DNA of 64,000 bases from Candidatus Phycosocius spiralis (GTDB lineage Bacteria; Pseudomonadota; Alphaproteobacteria; Caulobacterales; Aquidulcibacteraceae). Shown in pieces: positions 38,483 through 51,247 of this stretch. The notes beneath the pieces were generated by a model that ran no database searches, was not told where the DNA came from, and was given only the letters and a program-made list of their open reading frames with translations. A program made the position numbers and the translations under genes. The stretch's first letter is position 1. Each line of letters begins with the position of its first letter. The DNA lies in NCBI RefSeq assembly GCF_030158815.1, contig NZ_BPFZ01000007.1:62001-126000 (forward strand), in the 5' to 3' direction.

Positions 38483-39358
38483 TTAAGAACCTAATGTTAC
38501 GCGATTAAGGCGTTTATAGATCGCCCGTAATCTCGTGCTAAGTGTTAGATGGTCCCCTGGTCGAAGCACAGGCTGAGCAAATTGGCCCGTGCGAATATCG
38601 TGAGGAAGGCGAATTCTGCGCTTGTTACCGCGTTGATACATCAAGGTATGATACGTGCAGTCTTCAAAGAAAAAATGGGTCACTTGGCTGTAGCGTGTTT
38701 TGAGTTCGTCGCTTCTGGGTGCACCACCATGAACCAGATTGGCAACCCAAACTATGGCTTGGCCTTTTTTGATCAATCCATGGCGCGCAGAGATTTTATT
38801 GCGAGCAATTTGAGCCGCCATCGCAGGTTCATAAAGGGTTTTATAGCTTGTTTCAGGGCTTTGATTGGGCGGCGCACCAACATCATGCAAAGTGACAACA
38901 GGCCATTTGTGGCTGCCTGGAAAATACTCTAGTGGACCTGCTTCTTCATGCACATCTTCCAAAGCCAACCACACTCCACACATGAACTCAATCGGATCAG
39001 GCGTGAAGTGCATCAGATCGGAGTGGGCTGCTTGTTGGCTGCCAAATTTAAAATTCAAGGTTTGAAATGGAATCGCCCGACGACCATAATATGTTTCCAA
39101 TGGCGCAATCAGTTGTGGCAAAGTGGCAAGGCTTCTAACTGCTAAGGAGCGCTGCCATAAATCTTGGATGCGTGAACCATGTGTGTAGCCAAAGGCATCC
39201 ATATCCACCCTTGCTTGGTCACACAGTGCCAGAATGTCTGGATCGTGTGATAAATCGATTAAAGCAGTGCCATTAACGTCCATATTGTCAGCAAACTCTT
39301 GGTCCTGGGCAGAGGGTGCTTCAGCGACAAAAGACTGTGAGGGTAGCGCCTTTGCCAT
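38483..39358 (-). CDS. Phytanoyl-CoA dioxygenase-like protein within the atp operon
   Basis: A 291-residue Fe(II)/2-oxoglutarate-type dioxygenase of the PhyH family. The iron ligands look complete: HSD at residues 112-114 and distal His210 (NLVHGGAPRSD), followed by the 2OG-binding Arg in KTRYSQ. EEAGPLEYFPGSHKW is the usual PhyH core. It starts three bases after the atpG stop and ends 84 bases before atpD, so it is cotranscribed with ATP synthase. The substrate is unknown. Confidence 0.85.
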   Translation of the reverse strand: MAKALPSQSFVAEAPSAQDQEFADNMDVNGTALIDLSHDPDILALCDQARVDMDAFGYTHGSRIQDLWQRSLAVRSLATLPQLIAPLETYYGRRAIPFQTLNFKFGSQQAAHSDLMHFTPDPIEFMCGVWLALEDVHEEAGPLEYFPGSHKWPVVTLHDVGAPPNQSPETSYKTLYEPAMAAQIARNKISARHGLIKKGQAIVWVANLVHGGAPRSDELKTRYSQVTHFFFEDCTYHTLMYQRGNKRRIRLPHDIRTGQFAQPVLRPGDHLTLSTRLRAIYKRLNRVTLGS

Positions 39359-42723: not shown

Positions 42724-43248
42724 GTGGTAATCTTGGTTGAACCAAAAGATCAGAAGTACGACCCGCGAGGTGTTGCCAATTACATCCTCGACTGTTGCGA
42801 GATGGGTGGAATTGCGATCTCTAACTTAAAACTTCAAAAGATCATGTTTTTCGTTGAAGGGTGGCATTCTGCCACCCTTGGCCGCCAGCTTATTGATGCT
42901 GACTTTGAAGCTTGGGATTATGGTCCTGTTATTTCGACGATTTATCATTCTTTTAAGAGTTGGGGCTCGGAAGCAATTGAAGGCAGGGCGAAGGCAATAA
43001 ACTTAAAGGATGGTTCAACAGCTCCCGTCAAAGTTAATCTCCCTAGTGATACTGTCGACCTGATTTCGTTTATCTTGGCGAGATACGGACGGCTAGCCCC
43101 AGCTAAACTGGTAGAGCTTTCCCACGTCAAGGATGGCCCTTGGGACCAAGTCATGCGCATCGAACCTAGCGAACGTAAGACTTCACGAATTTCACAAGAT
43201 GCAATCAGAGATTTTTTTAGCAAAAAGATAAGAAGCCGAACATGCTAG
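42724..43248 (+). CDS. Panacea/SocA-type (DUF4065) antitoxin-like protein
   Basis: A protein of about 174 residues with the DUF4065 (Panacea, GepA/SocA) domain: ANYILDCCEMGGIAISNLKL, QKIMFFVEGWHSATLGRQLI, DADFEAWDYGPVISTIYHSF. Such proteins are known antitoxins of varied toxins (PanA), and Caulobacter SocA is a proteolytic adaptor for its toxin SocB. The start is uncertain: GTG at 42724 and TTG at 42733 are candidates. It overlaps the next gene by seven bases, as toxin-antitoxin partners often do. Confidence 0.82.
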   Translation: MVILVEPKDQKYDPRGVANYILDCCEMGGIAISNLKLQKIMFFVEGWHSATLGRQLIDADFEAWDYGPVISTIYHSFKSWGSEAIEGRAKAINLKDGSTAPVKVNLPSDTVDLISFILARYGRLAPAKLVELSHVKDGPWDQVMRIEPSERKTSRISQDAIRDFFSKKIRSRTC

Positions 43249-44003
43249 TTGGAAAAGACGGTAGGCTTAGTACGCCAAACGCACAACACTTGGCTGCTCA
43301 AATCGATTTAAACCCAACGCGTACTTACGATCTTATACGTCGAAGTGACAAGGAATTTCGTTCGAAGTACCGATACTTACATGCTGACCGCTTGATGGGT
43401 CCAATACTCGCTAACGACTTTACCTATGAGTTTGCGATAAAGCAAATTGCGACTTTAGCAACAGATGGCAAGTGTTGGCCCGAGGATTTGGAAGCATGTC
43501 GAAAAATGATCGACTATCGCCAACTCAAAAGAGTTACTTGGTATCAAAAGTTCCCGGCTTTGGAGTATCAACTTCCGACCGGTTTGATTATTAAAGTAAA
43601 AGTCGCGGGACTGGCAGGCTTTGAAGGTGGCGCCGCATTAGTGGCCCCTTTGTTTTGGGCAACCAAGAGCATGGAAGAGCTTCCTCTGCAATTTTGGCTC
43701 TACATTCTCACCGATACGTTCTGTAAATATGAAATGGCTTCGGTTGATATTGACATTGTGACTATGCGTAGGCCCGTGCAGTCAAGAGTGGAAAAGGAGC
43801 GAGGTGTAAAGCCAGGTCGAGTCCTTGAAATTTTTAATTCGAAAGATTTCGAGACTCTGACAAGAGAGCGATTTGTTGAAGTGTGTCGAATGTATCATAA
43901 GCAGCTAGACAAATATCTCTCTGATACGGGCCAAGGAACAGCAGGTCCTATAGACGATCTCAAAGGCGGTGCGCTTGGTGGTAGCGGCGGATTATCTTTT
44001 TAG
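43242..44003 (+). CDS. Unrecognised partner of the Panacea-domain gene
   Basis: A 253-residue protein I cannot assign. The first 50 residues are basic (TRTYDLIRRSDKEFRSKYRY). The centre is alpha/beta with several Trp and aromatic residues (RVTWYQKFPALEYQLPTG, PLQFWLYILTD) and acidic positions (VDIDIVTMRRP). The C-terminus is glycine-rich (GGALGGSGGLSF). There is no signal peptide or TM helix. Overlap with a DUF4065 gene makes a toxin, or another DUF4065-controlled protein, the leading hypothesis. Confidence 0.7.
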   Translation: MLVGKDGRLSTPNAQHLAAQIDLNPTRTYDLIRRSDKEFRSKYRYLHADRLMGPILANDFTYEFAIKQIATLATDGKCWPEDLEACRKMIDYRQLKRVTWYQKFPALEYQLPTGLIIKVKVAGLAGFEGGAALVAPLFWATKSMEELPLQFWLYILTDTFCKYEMASVDIDIVTMRRPVQSRVEKERGVKPGRVLEIFNSKDFETLTRERFVEVCRMYHKQLDKYLSDTGQGTAGPIDDLKGGALGGSGGLSF

Positions 44004-44158: not shown

Positions 44159-44394
44159 TCGGTTTTGGTGAACCGCATGTTCACGCAAAACCTTGTCTCT
44201 ATGGTCTTTTGCTCTTTCAAAGAGGTCAAGGGTCGCTTCGCTTCTGCCCTTGACCGCCCCAATCAGACGGCCCCCGCGATAGGTTCCAGTGCAGGCGGGT
44301 CAAGGGCGAAGAGCGAAGCGTCCCTTGAGGCGACTGGGCTGACATCAGACAATTGACGGTCGGTTTTGGTGAACCATAAGGGTCACCAAAATCG
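44159..44394. repeat. Palindromic repeat cluster (REP/MITE-like)
   Basis: Two direct copies of a 16-mer beginning TCGGTTTTGG (44159-44174 and 44360-44375) each open a hairpin. The first pairs GGTTTTGGTGAAC with GTTCACGCAAAACC, the second spans 44361-44394. Between them are two further stems in inverted orientation: GGTCAAGGG/CCCTTGACC (44224-44255) and CAAGGG/CCCTTG (44301-44327), both with CGCTTCGCT-like loops. This is typical of a non-coding mobile palindromic element. Confidence 0.6.
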
Positions 44395-44450
44395 TTCCAA
44401 AGCGTCTATTCTTAATAGTGCGATACAACCGCGCGTTCCAATCACCACGT

Positions 44451-44597
44451 TCACAGTGTCACATCATCCGGCGAAACTAAGCCCACGCCAAAGGGCGAAA
44501 AGTCTTTCGTATTGGCCGTCACGATCATCAGATCATGTGCTTTGGCGATCCCAGCGATTGCCGCATCTGCCATGCCGGGGTTGTGACCGCTTGCTAA
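44451..44597 (-). pseudogene. VapC/PIN-domain toxin remnant (3' part only)
   Basis: The minus strand reads [20 protein letters not shown] then [20 protein letters not shown] and ends SPDDVTL. This is the C-terminal third of a PIN-domain ribonuclease with its conserved Asp and the T-x-N-x-x-D-F motif. The 5' two thirds are absent: homology stops where the istB fragment begins. Confidence 0.75.
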
Positions 44598-44899
44598 GCC
44601 TTGATCTGATTATGGTGGATGAGTTGGGTTATCTGCCGTTTAGCACGTCTGGGGGTGCCATGTTGTTCCACTTGCTCTCAAAGCTCTACGAACAAACAAG
44701 CGTTATCATCACCACAAATCTCAGCTTCAGCGAATGGGCAGGTGTCTTCGGTGATGCCAAAATGACTCCAGCTCTACTCGATCGACTAACACACCACTGT
44801 GATATCCTCCAGACTGGCAATGACAGCTTCCGCTTCCGCGCAAGTGCCAAAACAAGCACTAATGCGCCCAAAGTCAGAAAGGAAAAACCAACCTCGTGA
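44597..44899 (+). pseudogene. IstB (IS21 family ATPase) remnant (3' part only)
   Basis: Reads [20 protein letters not shown] with the Walker B region, then [20 protein letters not shown] and [20 protein letters not shown], the C-terminal 100 residues of IstB. The P-loop half and IstA are missing. Sequence to about 45000 (ending near GGGTCACTTCTCAGCG) resembles the outer end of an IS21 element. Confidence 0.85.
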
Positions 44900-45450: not shown

Positions 45451-45480
45451 AAAATGAAAGGGCGGACCGGAGCCCGCCCT
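45451..45480 (-). terminator. tracrRNA intrinsic terminator
   Basis: On the minus strand GGGCGG-N8-CCGCCC is followed by TTTCATTTT. It closes the tracrRNA. Confidence 0.8.
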
Positions 45481-45538
45481 TATCTCGTGGGGGAGAACCC
45501 CTTGTTAACGGAGGGCCCCGCCGCGTTCTCGATTAGCT
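45451..45538 (-). ncRNA. tracrRNA
   Basis: Minus-strand RNA of about 88 bases, divergent from cas9. Positions 45504-45539 form a 36-base anti-repeat: the first 21 bases are identical to the CRISPR repeat in plus-strand orientation (AAGCTAATCGAGAACGCGGC and the next G), and the last 15 are diverged but end AAC as the repeat does. The tail then reads AAGGGGTTCTCCCC (a nexus-like hairpin) and ends in a terminator. Its anti-repeat can pair with a crRNA transcribed from the minus strand of the array. Confidence 0.85.
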
Positions 45539-45544
45539 TCACAT

Positions 45545-45573
45545 AAGCTATGTCCGAACTTGACATTTTGCAA
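45545..45573 (-). promoter_or_regulatory. Putative tracrRNA promoter
   Basis: On the minus strand TTGCAA, 17 bases, TAGCTT. The start would fall at about 45538, right at the anti-repeat. The same TAGCTT hexamer closes every CRISPR repeat. Confidence 0.5.
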
Positions 45574-45640: not shown

Positions 45641-48600
45641 TTGACAGGATTTGTACGATTTTCGTTTGATATGGGCACAAACTCGCTAGGTTGGGCGGTA
45701 TTTCTTGGGCAATATCCAAATGGTGTGAAATCTGCGCGGATCACTGGCGTAGCTGGTGTTAGCGGCGAGCTTACGGACATTTCATCGGCTGGCGTTCGAA
45801 TCTACAGCGATGGCAGAAATCCAAAGGATGGGAAGTCGTTAGCGGAGATGCGGCGCGGACCCCGCGCAGCGCGGCGGCGGCGAGATCGATTTTTACAGCG
45901 TCAGCGTGGCCTAAATCGCTTGCTTAAGATCTATGGACTGTTTCCAACTTCTGTATCTGAAGGAAAAGCGCTTGCACGTCTTGACCCCCTAAAACTTCGT
46001 GCGGAAGCCCTCGAACGAGCTCTGACGCCATATGAGCTTGGCCGCGCGATCTGGCACTTAAATCAAAGGAGGGGGTTTAAGAGCAATCGGAAGACCGACA
46101 AGGCCGATGAGAGCGGTAAGGTAAAGTCGGGACAAGCTCGCCTCAATGCTGCGCTTGAGCAAGAAGGGTTCCATACGCTAGGCCAATGGCTGTACAATCG
46201 GCGCGCACAAGGTTCTAGATTTCGCGCGACCCCAGACCCTGAGTCAAAAGCAGTCGGCAAAACTTGGTTTGAGTTTTATCCCGAGCGCGGCATGGTCGAG
46301 GATGAATTTGATATCATTTGGTCTCGACAGGCGAATTATCATCCCAGCTTAATGACTGATGTTGCACGAGACACAATTCGCAAAATGGTCTTCTTTCAAC
46401 GACCGTTGAAGAAACAACAAATCGGAAAATGCACCTTCAATTCTGACGAACTTCGCGCGCCAAAAGCTTTGCCTAGTGTGGAGGCTCGAGAAATCTACGA
46501 ACGACTCAATCAGTTGCGCTTTGGCTTCGGTCCGGTCCGCACTACGACTTTGGACCGTCACCAACGCGATGCATTAGCTGCCACTTTGCTCGCCGGTGAC
46601 AAAGTAAGTTGGGACAAGGTCCGTCGGACTTTGAAGCTGCCTGCTGATACCCTGTTTAATCTGGAAGACACCTTAAAGGAACTGCCTTCCTCCAAAACCG
46701 CAGCTCGTATGAAAAAGCCTGATGCATTCGGGGCCAAATGGCTGAACTTCAGCCTCGCGGACCGTGATGAAATCATGTGGCGCTTTATCGACACAGAGGA
46801 CGAGGCCGAGCTTGCTGCTTGGCTAGTTGAAACGCATCGATTCGAACATGAGGTGGCGAGTAAATTGGCTGCCAGCCCAACAGCTGGCCAAGACGGTTAC
46901 GGCCGTCTCGGTGTTACCGCAAATCGTAAGATACTCGAACAGTTACTCGCCGACCATCTGGCCGTGTATTCCATTGCGGCAGAGCGCGCAGGGTATCATC
47001 ACAGCGATTTCAGGACGGGCGAGGTTATGGACCGACTTCCCTATTACGGAGAAGTCCTTGAACGACATATTATTGATAGTGGTCCCGAATTGCGCGAGGC
47101 GGTTGCCGCATACAAGCGCGATAAGGAAAAAAACGCCAACCGAGCCGATGGAAAAGTTCATAGCCGCAAGTTTCTGGGGGCTGGCCTAGAAGAAGCAGAG
47201 ACAGGCCGTGTTCCCAATCCAACAGTGCATATTGGGCTAAACCAGCTTCGACGGGTCGTTAATCGGTTGATTGAGACTTATGGACCTCCAGACGAGATCG
47301 TCTTGGAACTCGCCCGCGAACTAAAGATGAATGATGAGCAAAAGAAAAAGGCTGATGAGGAGAATCGCAAAAACAGAAAGGCTAATGAACGCAGGCGTCT
47401 CGCGATTGAAGCGCTGAAATTACCGGTAAACGGCAAAACCTTGATGCGACATCGACTTTTCGATCTTCAAATGGTCGGAGGTATTGTTCTGTGCCCTTAT
47501 TCCTTGCGTGCTATCGGACTCGAACAAGCTCTGGGCGGGGGAGAGATCGATGTCGATCACATACTGCCGTTTTCGCGTTCATATGACGACGGCGTGGCTA
47601 ACAAGATCCTATGTTATCGATCCGCGAACCAACAGAAGCGCAATCGAAGTCCAGCGGAGGCATTTGAAGGCAACGCAGAATGGCCATCCATTCTTGCAAA
47701 TGCCCAGACACTTGGGAGAAGCCGCGCTTGGCGCTTTGCACCAGATGCCATGGACCGGTTCAAGGACATGGGTGGCTTTCTGGAGCGACAACTCAATGAA
47801 ACAAAGCATTTGGCCAGAATTGCCCGCGCCTATTTGGAATGCTTGACACCAAATGTGTGGGTCGTCACAGGGCAGCTTACAGCTCTGATGAGAGGTAAGT
47901 GGGGTCTAAATGGCCTCTTGAACGACGATAATCGCAAAAATCGCAACGATCACCGCCATCATGCAATCGACGCAATTACAATCGGTTGTATTTCTCGCAG
48001 TCTGCTTAATCGCCTGTCGACCGCTACTGCGCGCGCGGAGGAAAACAATCTAGAGCGCTTATTTGACGACTTCCCAGAACCAATGGCGGACTTTCGCGCG
48101 AAAGCAAAGAAGGCCGTTGAGGCCATCATTGTGAGCCATAAGCCTGAGCATGGTAAGGGCGGTGCCCTGCATGAAGAAACGGCCTATGGGTTGAACGTGC
48201 ACGAGCATGAAAAGGCGTTGGGCAATGTCGTGCTGCGGCTGCGGTTGGATGATCTAACCGTCAAAGAAGCTGAACGGGTGCGAGATCCCGCACTTCGCAA
48301 GGTTTTTTTGGCCTTGCGCCATGACGTTCAGTCGGATCAGAAAGCATTCACCAGGGCAGTGCAGGATTGGGCTCTGAAGCAGGCCAACGATTATGCAGCA
48401 GCTTTCCCAAATCGCCCGCATCGTCAACCGATGCAGCGGGTACGGATCCTAAAGCCCGAAGCAGCTTTGGTCCCTATCTATGATGCCAATCAAAGCAGCT
48501 TCACCAAGGGTCTCGTGCCGGCAGAAAATTATTGCGTGGATATCGTCAAAATGCGCGATGGCACTTGGAAGGGATTTGGTGCGACGATCTTTGAAGTGAA

Positions 48601-48910
48601 CCGCAAAGATTGGCGTCCAATTTGGGAACGCGAGAAGCTTGGTGGGTTGTTGATGATGCGACTTCACAAGGGCGATTTGGTGGAGCTGGAGGACAGCGAC
48701 GGGGTTCGGCGGGTGAAGCGGGTGGTGCGGATCGCTCCAAGCGGGGGTCGAATGTATTTGGCAACCCATTTCGAAGCGGGCAGTTTGCAAGAGAGACATG
48801 ATGCACCGGACTCTGCGGATGGATTTCGATGGGATTTGGCAAGTTTCTCCAAGTTACGTGATCGCGGCGCCAGAAAGGTAAAAATAAATGAAGTGGGATC
48901 GCCGCGGTAG
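45641..48910 (+). CDS. cas9: CRISPR-associated endonuclease Cas9, type II-C
   Basis: RNA-guided DNA endonuclease of 1089 residues, a type II-C size. Catalytic residues are all visible: RuvC-I Asp10 (FSFDMGTNSLGWAV), an Arg-rich bridge helix (residues 71-95, RRGPRAARRRRDRFLQRQRG), RuvC-II Glu556 (EIVLELAREL), HNH His640 (GEIDVDHILPFSRSYDDG, later ANQQKRNR) and RuvC-III His774/Asp777 (NDHRHHAIDA). The start is TTG at 45641, seven to eight bases after AGGAG; the upstream frame is non-homologous. cas1 follows after 80 bases. The gene appears intact. Confidence 0.97.
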   Translation: MTGFVRFSFDMGTNSLGWAVFLGQYPNGVKSARITGVAGVSGELTDISSAGVRIYSDGRNPKDGKSLAEMRRGPRAARRRRDRFLQRQRGLNRLLKIYGLFPTSVSEGKALARLDPLKLRAEALERALTPYELGRAIWHLNQRRGFKSNRKTDKADESGKVKSGQARLNAALEQEGFHTLGQWLYNRRAQGSRFRATPDPESKAVGKTWFEFYPERGMVEDEFDIIWSRQANYHPSLMTDVARDTIRKMVFFQRPLKKQQIGKCTFNSDELRAPKALPSVEAREIYERLNQLRFGFGPVRTTTLDRHQRDALAATLLAGDKVSWDKVRRTLKLPADTLFNLEDTLKELPSSKTAARMKKPDAFGAKWLNFSLADRDEIMWRFIDTEDEAELAAWLVETHRFEHEVASKLAASPTAGQDGYGRLGVTANRKILEQLLADHLAVYSIAAERAGYHHSDFRTGEVMDRLPYYGEVLERHIIDSGPELREAVAAYKRDKEKNANRADGKVHSRKFLGAGLEEAETGRVPNPTVHIGLNQLRRVVNRLIETYGPPDEIVLELARELKMNDEQKKKADEENRKNRKANERRRLAIEALKLPVNGKTLMRHRLFDLQMVGGIVLCPYSLRAIGLEQALGGGEIDVDHILPFSRSYDDGVANKILCYRSANQQKRNRSPAEAFEGNAEWPSILANAQTLGRSRAWRFAPDAMDRFKDMGGFLERQLNETKHLARIARAYLECLTPNVWVVTGQLTALMRGKWGLNGLLNDDNRKNRNDHRHHAIDAITIGCISRSLLNRLSTATARAEENNLERLFDDFPEPMADFRAKAKKAVEAIIVSHKPEHGKGGALHEETAYGLNVHEHEKALGNVVLRLRLDDLTVKEAERVRDPALRKVFLALRHDVQSDQKAFTRAVQDWALKQANDYAAAFPNRPHRQPMQRVRILKPEAALVPIYDANQSSFTKGLVPAENYCVDIVKMRDGTWKGFGATIFEVNRKDWRPIWEREKLGGLLMMRLHKGDLVELEDSDGVRRVKRVVRIAPSGGRMYLATHFEAGSLQERHDAPDSADGFRWDLASFSKLRDRGARKVKINEVGSPR

Positions 48911-48990: not shown

Positions 48991-49932
48991 ATGTTGGGGA
49001 TACCACGCATAGTCGAAATTACCACGCCAGGCCGTCGATTGCGCCTGGATCGCGGGTTCTTGGCTGTCAATGACGGACAATCTGACATTGGCAAAATCGC
49101 TCTCGATTCGATTACTGCCTTGCTGCTGACTACTCCCGCAGTGTCAATAACTGGCCAAGCTCTTGCGGCCCTAGCAGAGCGGGGGGCGCCGGTTGTTTCG
49201 TGTGGGCCTGATTTCTGCCCATCCAGCTACCTTCTGCCAGTCTCAGGTCATCATGCACAAGGGGCTCGACTTGAGGCTCAAGCTTCTGCAAGCCTGCCTT
49301 CCAAGAAGCGTATTTGGCAACAGATTGTCCAAGCAAAACTCACAGCTCAAGCGGATGTCTTAGCTCAGCTTGGCATATCCGATATACCCGTCCGGGCTTT
49401 GGTTAAAACCGTAACTTCTGGCGATGCCACAAACCGCGAGGCGACCGGCGCCCAACGCTATTGGCCTCTGCTTTTTGGCAAAGGCTTCAGGCGCGATAGA
49501 GAAGAGCCGGGCATTAATGCCATGCTGAATTACGGCTACACCGTTCTGCGCGCAGCCACGGCACGCGCGATTGTTGCAGCCGGGCTCCACCCGTCATTGG
49601 GCGTTCAGCATAAAAGCAAAGGCAGCGGCTTACGCTTGTCTGACGACCTTATGGAACCATTCCGCCCTACTGTTGATTTGGTGGTCCATAGCTTGGTTAA
49701 ACAAGGCCAATGCCAGGTCACAACAGACACTAAAGCACGTTTAGTAGGTGTATTGCTTCTAGATTTTTCAACCGTTGAAGGTGTTAGTCCACTCTCAAAT
49801 GTAATTGCGCGTTCAGCTGTTCAATTGGCGCAAACCTATCTTGGTGAGAGAAAAGCGCTTTCTTTCCCGAAATCTATGGTCCCGATTTCATTTGCGAATG
49901 ATAGATCAAATTTACAGGAGGATGCCGCGTGA
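48991..49932 (+). CDS. cas1: CRISPR integrase Cas1
   Basis: A 313-residue type II Cas1 that integrates spacers. The active-site residues are present: Glu150 (NREATGAQRYW), His207 (SLGVQHKSKGSGLRLSDDLM) and the acidic cluster at 218-222 (DDLMEPFRP). A perfect AGGAGG precedes the ATG. Its stop overlaps the cas2 start. Confidence 0.96.
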   Translation: MLGIPRIVEITTPGRRLRLDRGFLAVNDGQSDIGKIALDSITALLLTTPAVSITGQALAALAERGAPVVSCGPDFCPSSYLLPVSGHHAQGARLEAQASASLPSKKRIWQQIVQAKLTAQADVLAQLGISDIPVRALVKTVTSGDATNREATGAQRYWPLLFGKGFRRDREEPGINAMLNYGYTVLRAATARAIVAAGLHPSLGVQHKSKGSGLRLSDDLMEPFRPTVDLVVHSLVKQGQCQVTTDTKARLVGVLLLDFSTVEGVSPLSNVIARSAVQLAQTYLGERKALSFPKSMVPISFANDRSNLQEDAA

Positions 49933-50261
49933 AAGCGCTTTCGGCATATCGCATCATGTGGGTGTTGACGATTTTTGATTTACCGGTGTTGACTGCCGCG
50001 CAGCGCAAAAAGGCCAATGCATTTCGAAAATATTTGCTCGACCTTGGCTTCAACATGATGCAACTTTCGGTCTATATTCAACATGCGGCGGGCAAAGAGG
50101 CTGCTGAATCATTGGCAAGTAAGGTTGGCGAACGTGTCCCAAGAGCTGGTAAAGTCGATGTATTGTTCTTTACGGACAAACAGTACGAATCGATCAAAGT
50201 CTTCCGCGGTGTGGCCGATGTTTTGCCGCCCAAAAAACCGAATCAACTTGAACTTTTTTGA
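49929..50261 (+). CDS. cas2: CRISPR adaptation protein Cas2
   Basis: A 110-residue Cas2 with the ferredoxin-like first strand and conserved Asp (WVLTIFDLPVLTAAQRK) and the LGFNMMQLSVYIQ strand. It starts with GTG inside the GTGA overlap with cas1. No csn2 or cas4 is present, which fits subtype II-C. Confidence 0.95.
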   Translation: MKALSAYRIMWVLTIFDLPVLTAAQRKKANAFRKYLLDLGFNMMQLSVYIQHAAGKEAAESLASKVGERVPRAGKVDVLFFTDKQYESIKVFRGVADVLPPKKPNQLELF

Positions 50262-50353: not shown

Positions 50354-51247
50354 AAGCTAATCGAGAACGCGGCGTGTGCCAACCGCAACCACTGATCAGC
50401 GAGCCCTTAGCGCGGCCTTAAGCTAATCGAGAACGCGGCGTGTGCCAACCGCAACGATTGGGCGGCGCAAGAGCGATGGGGCAAGAAGCTAATCGAGAAC
50501 GCGGCGTGTGCCAACCGCAACCGCAGCACGTTCAAGAGTGAGCACGCCGCAAAGCTAATCGAGAACGCGGCGTGTGCCAACCGCAACCAGGTTGCCGCCG
50601 AATACGCCAATGTTCTTAAAGCTAATCGAGAACGCGGCGTGTGCCAACCGCAACTTAGCCGCAGATATGGCGTCGAACAGAGTTAAGCTAATCGAGAACG
50701 CGGCGTGTGCCAACCGCAACTATATCCGCAAATGATTTTATTTTTTTTATAAGCTAATCGAGAACGCGGCGTGTGCCAACCGCAACAAGGTCAATCCAGA
50801 GTGGTTGCTTTATGGAAAGCTAATCGAGAACGCGGCGTGTGCCAACCGCAACTACTTCTTCAAACCAGATAGTTTGAAACGGAAGCTAATCGAGAACGCG
50901 GCGTGTGCCAACCGCAACACCGCCACAATCTTCGAGCGGTCAAAGGTGAAGCTAATCGAGAACGCGGCGTGTGCCAACCGCAACAAAATCAATCCAGAGT
51001 GGTTGCTTTATGGAAAGCTAATCGAGAACGCGGCGTGTGCCAACCGCAACGGGAACCATTGTCCATAACTTTCTTTATAGAAGCTAATCGAGAACGCGGC
51101 GTGTGCCAACCGCAACAATGTTAATCATTCTAAAATTGTTAGTGCAAAGCTAATCGAGAACGCGGCGTGTGCCAACCGCAATTACGATCAACTCAATATG
51201 TTCTTGATGGGAAGCTAAACGAGAGAGCGCCAGTAAGCACCTTAAAA
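50354..51247 (-). CRISPR. CRISPR array, 13 repeats plus a degenerate one, 13 spacers
   Basis: The 36-bp repeat reads AAGCTAATCGAGAACGCG... on the plus strand, or GTTGCGGTTGGCACACGC... in crRNA sense. Repeats start at 50354, 50420, 50486, 50552, 50619, 50685, 50751, 50817, 50883, 50949, 51015, 51081 and 51147. All are identical except the last, whose final C is T. A degenerate repeat starts at 51212. Spacers are 30 bases (one 31, the last 29). Spacers at 50787-50816 and 50985-51014 are nearly identical. Strand is assigned from the anti-repeat and the terminator. Confidence 0.97.

Follow-up and report, generated by a model that had tools for sequence, protein, structure and literature searches.

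Does the short intergenic stretch beside cas9 in Candidatus Phycosocius spiralis hold the gene for the tracrRNA of its own CRISPR array, and is that gene still intact? The window, that is the whole stretch of DNA analysed here, comprises 64,000 nucleotides of contig NZ_BPFZ01000007.1 (positions 62,001 to 126,000 of the forward strand). A first-pass annotation made from the letters alone had proposed on its minus strand a complete tracrRNA of about 85-95 nt with full-length anti-repeat, promoter and terminator, serving an apparently intact type II-C Cas9. On the basis of sequence, conservation, covariation, thermodynamic pairing, uninterrupted reading frames for the effector and the adaptation proteins, and an RNase III gene encoded in the genome, I conclude that the minus strand from 45539 to about 45451 is almost certainly the tracrRNA gene of a type II-C CRISPR-Cas9 system in this alphaproteobacterium, divergent from cas9. 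Judged by its sequence, the gene looks intact and is of a kind already known from related bacteria (Table 1).

Table 1. Features of the tracrRNA gene and of the CRISPR-Cas locus, in coordinates of the window
Feature	Position	Strand	Basis
Predicted tracrRNA, about 89 nt	45451..45539	minus	sequence, covariance-model match
tracrRNA anti-repeat, 36 nt (21 bases identical to the repeat, 15 diverged)	45504..45539	minus	alignment, co-fold, covariation
Nexus hairpin GGGG-UUCU-CCCC, 4 bp	45490..45501	minus	co-fold, pair covariation, covariance model
tracrRNA Rho-independent terminator hairpin; the interrupted T run then reaches about 45449	45458..45481	minus	
Putative tracrRNA promoter TTGCAA-17-TAGCTT, weak	45545..45573	minus	sequence, position within family
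cas9, TTG start chosen, 1089 aa, RuvC and HNH motifs	45641..48910	plus	
cas1 (type II), the only Cas1 match in the genome	48991..49932	plus	
cas2	49929..50261	plus	
CRISPR array, 13 repeats and a degenerate terminal repeat at 51212, 13 spacers of 29-31 nt	50354..51247	minus (inferred)	

Anatomy of the predicted gene

Read on the minus strand from 45573, the order is TTGCAA, 17 bases, TAGCTT, ATGTG and the 36-base anti-repeat (45539-45504), which is followed on its 3' side by AAGGGGTTCTCCCC, CACGAGAT, the hairpin AAGGGCGG...CCGCCCTT and an interrupted T tail. The gene lies directly upstream of cas9-cas1-cas2 and the 13-spacer array, and is divergent from cas9. The anti-repeat is indeed full-length, as its first 21 bases are all identical to those of the array repeat and 7 of the remaining 15 positions are common, with an alignment score of 42 as against 19-21 for three shuffled repeats. 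With up to two mismatches allowed, a search of the 2.5-Mb genome for the 21-mer gives 14 sites, of which 13 belong to the array and one, on the opposite strand, to the tracrRNA gene. The small hairpin and the GC-rich hairpin with a T-tail were likewise recovered as the nexus and the terminator; the stem of the latter (45481-45458) consists of 10 pairs, 7 of them G-C, with a loop of 4 and the tail TCATTTTGAT, in which the T run is interrupted (TTTCATTTT). A terminator scan of a 351-base stretch on both strands reported two sites where shuffled sequences lead one to expect 0.5, and the tracrRNA hairpin is the longer of the two. Apart from the promoter, the described parts of the gene exceed chance. 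At gathering thresholds Rfam matched only a tRNA in the whole window, so that no curated Rfam family reaches threshold on the tracrRNA. A long-form tracrRNA, one that carries a targeting segment of its own, was looked for by folding a hypothetical long transcript from 45760; in this fold nothing paired clearly with the anti-repeat in the manner of a crRNA.

Co-folded with the repeat in its GTTGCGG sense, the tracrRNA forms 21 bp, a loop, 3 bp, a second loop and a 7-bp stem with one bulged U, which is the bulged crRNA:tracrRNA duplex that had been expected from the diverged part of the anti-repeat. The binding energy of -38.8 kcal/mol lies far below that of the controls, namely 200 mononucleotide-shuffled tracrRNAs (mean -6.4, lowest -18.3 kcal/mol) and up to 300 other pieces of the window (mean -6.7, lowest -17.4 kcal/mol).

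Minus-strand transcription of the gene would begin just before the anti-repeat and end at the terminator, giving an RNA of about 89 nt. The crRNAs, produced from this strand of the array as well, would carry the repeat in its GTTGCGG sense and pair through it with the anti-repeat. In the resulting duplex, the 21-bp upper stem would be followed by the 3-bp stem between its two internal loops and by the 7-bp stem with its bulged U next to the spacer, while the nexus hairpin, the CACGAGAU linker and the terminator hairpin would be the part held by Cas9. The upper stem may be trimmed by RNase III, after which the duplex would load Cas9 and direct the cleavage of matching DNA.

Related loci and covariation

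At an E-value of 0.001, Cas9 matched none of 8 genomes of the same genus. A match was found in 25 of 398 genomes sampled from the order (at 1e-60) and in 22 of 385 sampled from the class (at 1e-100), the own genome being counted both times, and the nearest Cas9 found, that of L018, is 50% identical. Together, 46 larger stretches, four contigs and the window made up a set of 51 loci, each of which matches Cas9. The search for anti-repeats covered the 36 loci in which a repeat no shorter than 30 nt had been detected and left out the other 15. In 36/36 loci, the sequence outside the array that best matches the repeat is on the other strand from cas9, and in 35/36 it falls within a range that begins 618 nt before the stop-to-stop cas9 frame and ends 31 nt inside it, including L065, where the best matches are two further copies of the repeat and not an anti-repeat. 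L067 is the positional exception; its cas9 frame is shortened, and its second-best repeat match lies upstream. What most loci have in common after the anti-repeat is CCGTTAACAAG, a short hairpin, CACaAaAT and a terminator. The two extra copies in L065, at 2848 and 2914 of its reverse complement, are 66 nt apart upstream of cas9 and form a mini-array on the opposite strand, near a tracrRNA gene that is matched there by the covariance model R1.

This model was trained on 31 relatives with the window excluded; L065, L089, L110 and L067 were omitted from the training alignment as well. Its best match in the window is found at 45532-45444 of the minus strand (53.9 bits, E 1e-13; runner-up E 0.5), close to the predicted extent of 45539 to about 45451 and in keeping with the length first proposed. 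Genome-wide, the tracrRNA is the sole match at E 0.001 (3.9e-12). Among 19 loci held out of the training, 16 were matched below 1e-3, the remaining ones being L109, L089 and L110, and the Bosea plasmid locus was matched at 1.4e-14. In the nexus and terminator, 10/11 pairs are kept through changes on both sides among the 31 relatives.

Repeat and anti-repeat, too, co-vary across loci. For this count L065, L089, L110 and L097 were left out by choice, and L067 for want of a clear match near the frame; in the remaining 31 loci, 93.2% of the repeat:anti-repeat pairs are formed with the own repeat. Over 1000 swaps of repeats among these loci, a mean of 70.5% and a maximum of 77.2% of the pairs are formed, although the test leans toward pairing in the upper stem, because the anti-repeats were located by their likeness to the own repeat. 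In the lower stem alone, which was anchored on a conserved TAAC motif inside the stretch placed by the repeat match, the figures are 98.2% for the own repeat, 92.9% for the swapped mean and 95.4% for the swapped maximum. None of the 1000 swaps matched the pairing of the own repeats, for all pairs and for the lower stem alike, but these percentages are not probabilities, given that loci of common descent do not count as independent and that repeat likeness served to place the upper stem. At repeat position 4, where the usual pair is G-U, three loci have C-G and one has A-U. Covariation across loci marks which pairs of the lower duplex are held. The family model built without the window, the covariation and the co-folding together support the complete minus-strand tracrRNA of the first-pass annotation.

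Promoters of the gene and of the repeats

The proposed promoter fared less well. The string TTGCAA-17-TAGCTT is present at 45573-45545 and agrees with the sigma-70 consensus at 7/12 positions, but it does not stand above chance in the window. A promoter scan of the 351-base stretch reported no site, and the best consensus pair upstream of the anti-repeat is a different one, also with 7/12, where shuffled sequences average 6.9. In the window itself, the promoter-like score is 7 immediately before the anti-repeat, and two other offsets reach 8. In 34 loci, with base composition uncontrolled, the mean best score peaks directly upstream of the anti-repeat (7.18) and falls gradually, to 5.7-6.4 from 50 nt further upstream on. 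Upstream of the same number of anti-repeats the mean best score is 7.0, as compared to 6.3 in mononucleotide shuffles. Support across the family is mild and comes from position, not from the sequence of the window. Since the enrichment is positional in the family and the score is at chance level here, a promoter at this place is probable across the family but no more than putative in the window's own copy. Transcription is predicted to start at about 45538-45540.

The last six bases of the repeat are TAGCTT, the proposed -10 box of the tracrRNA gene, and the repeat holds TTGGCA-17-TAGCTT where the gene holds TTGCAA-17-TAGCTT. Each repeat, here and in the alphaproteobacterial II-C group, may carry its own promoter, with the tracrRNA gene of the window using the same elements, a tentative reading that I hold to be somewhat more doubtful than probable. 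If true, crRNAs would start inside each spacer, without processing of the pre-crRNA on the 5' side, and would be co-regulated with the tracrRNA. T31 and A32 are present in 36/36 repeats. The tracrRNA partner fails to pair with T31 in 5/31 loci and with A32 in 6/31, so that duplex pairing by itself is not enough to account for their conservation; another possible reason is that Cas1-Cas2 recognizes them during integration. Repeat-borne promoters have been reported in other II-C arrays (PMC10309648, PMC10281378).

The array and the cas genes

Twelve of the array repeats are identical and one carries a single change. The repeat lacks G29 and C30, which are carried by 33/35 and 31/35 repeats, respectively. 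The array was assigned to the minus strand because its crRNAs must read GTTGCGG... in order to pair with the tracrRNA, and it would accordingly be transcribed opposite to the cas operon. Five of the 13 spacers were searched for outside the window, and no convincing protospacer was found among them: viral contigs gave 0 matches to the pattern of a near-duplicate pair and to two exact spacers, a phage collection searched with three spacers singly gave weak matches only (best E about 2), and in 398 genomes of the order the near-duplicate pair, at up to three mismatches, matched only the array itself. Within the window none of the 13 spacers has a convincing self-match; 3/13 have a match with a 10-base seed, with 13-20 matching bases in all.

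The near-duplicate pair (50787-50816 and 50985-51014) differs in only 2/30 bases. Counted from the repeat, these are the third and fourth at the 3' end of the crRNA spacer, in the place expected of a Cas9 seed. On the plus strand these spacers encode KVNPEWLLYG and KINPEWLLYG, which presumably resemble the end of a phage repressor-type HTH domain. The pattern suggests a single target with two alleles, or else a variant that escaped targeting.

The reading frames of cas9, cas1 and cas2 are open. The TTG start of cas9 at 45641 sits behind AGGAG, and the protein matches TIGR01865 at 2.2e-160, with motifs of RuvC I, II and III and of HNH all present (FDMGTN, LELAREL, DVDHILP, HHAIDA); of these four strings, all except FDMGTN fall within alignments to solved Cas9s. 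The effector thus looks as intact as was claimed. It is far from the PDB chains that I take to be NmeCas9 (phmmer 3.7e-45). With respect to the subtype, the profile of cas4, which marks II-B (PF01930), has no match in the genome and matches 8/14 control genomes. That of csn2, which marks II-A (PF09711), has no match either, but as 0/14 controls were matched, this search does not show the absence of csn2; the gap between cas2 and the array, being only 92 bases, leaves no room for it there.

Alternative readings

An inverted copy of the repeat, left beside cas9 by decay of the array and no longer transcribed, would resemble such a gene, and the weak promoter, the interrupted T tail and the lack of a convincing protospacer for the five spacers searched all fit a degenerate, silent relic of this sort. 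However, the window's own repeat pairs at 21/21 positions of the upper stem and 7/7 of the lower stem, whereas the repeats of the other 30 loci pair with at most 13/21 positions of this upper stem. At 53.9 bits, the score of the conserved core with nexus and terminator falls inside the 21-67 bits of the held-out relatives, the cas genes are open and the repeats are nearly identical, all of which makes a relic very improbable.

The anti-repeat alone would fit either sense if the array were read the other way, in which case a tracrRNA on the plus strand would read into cas9 and the crRNAs would come from the plus strand of the array. Against this, the best score of R1 on the plus strand at this site is 9.2 bits, compared to 53.9 bits on the minus strand, and in the plus direction the terminator scan reports nothing for the tracrRNA hairpin, which has no T run there. 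The repeat, moreover, begins with GTT in the minus sense, as do 31/36 repeats of the group, the window's included, all of them opposite to the sense of cas9. The chance that the plus strand is the right one is in my view negligible, smaller still than that of a relic, and the minus-strand tracrRNA gene is the reading retained.

Relation to known systems

The anatomy agrees with that of published type II-C systems, and especially with EHCas9 (PMC10281378). EHCas9 is a metagenome-derived member of type II-C clade IX that is reported to cleave DNA (PMC10281378); it is likened to the present locus by gene order and tracrRNA anatomy. There, too, the order is cas9-cas1-cas2-array with 36-bp repeats; a putative tracrRNA gene about 100 bp long, with predicted promoter and terminator, lies upstream of cas9, and two presumed stem-loops follow the anti-repeat (PMC10281378). 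A minimal cas9-cas1-cas2 set, with the array transcribed opposite to the operon, is described for II-C loci and for Neisseria meningitidis among them in a further paper, which also states that the location and direction of the tracrRNA vary among such loci (PMC3936727). The grouping of tracrRNAs by covariance models has likewise been described (PMC7606464).

Closer at hand, the tracrRNA lies upstream of cas9 and on the opposite strand, as in the window, in Aliihoeflea aestuarii (L016), Pelagibacterium sediminicola (L017), an uncultured member of the Alphaproteobacteria (L018) and on a plasmid of Bosea sp. ANAM02 (L111), as well as in further genomes of the group. The Cas9 proteins of these four are 36-50% identical to that of the window, and those of the other genomes in the alphaproteobacterial II-C group 27-42% over their best segments; the repeats of L016-L018 are 36 nt long, as is the window's. 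The tracrRNAs of the group and of the window have a common core (CCGTTAACAAG, nexus, CACaAaAT linker and terminator), whereas the letters of repeat and upper stem differ. A literature search on Parvibaculum lavamentivorans with Cas9 and tracrRNA found no paper. Neither the prediction nor the covariation changes the understanding of type II systems; what is gained is a dual-guide RNA, predicted in full, for a Cas9 that is 50% identical to the nearest relative found, so that the PAM and activity of this enzyme could be tested with a guide designed from the sequence.

Neighbouring genes

Elsewhere in the window, a phytanoyl-CoA dioxygenase-like gene (PhyH, 1.1e-17) at 38483-39358 of the minus strand lies between the genes for the gamma and beta subunits of ATP synthase, and has a match in 8/20 relatives searched, the best with 51% identity over part of the protein. 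At 42733-44003, a SocA/Panacea-type antitoxin gene (PF13274, 5.9e-19; under the NCBIfam SocA cut-off) overlaps a gene of 253 aa that has no Pfam match above cut-off, and the two may be a toxin-antitoxin pair beside the CRISPR locus. Between this pair and the tracrRNA gene sits a remnant of an IS21-type IstB (44366-44896), in which only the C-terminal part of the profile is matched.
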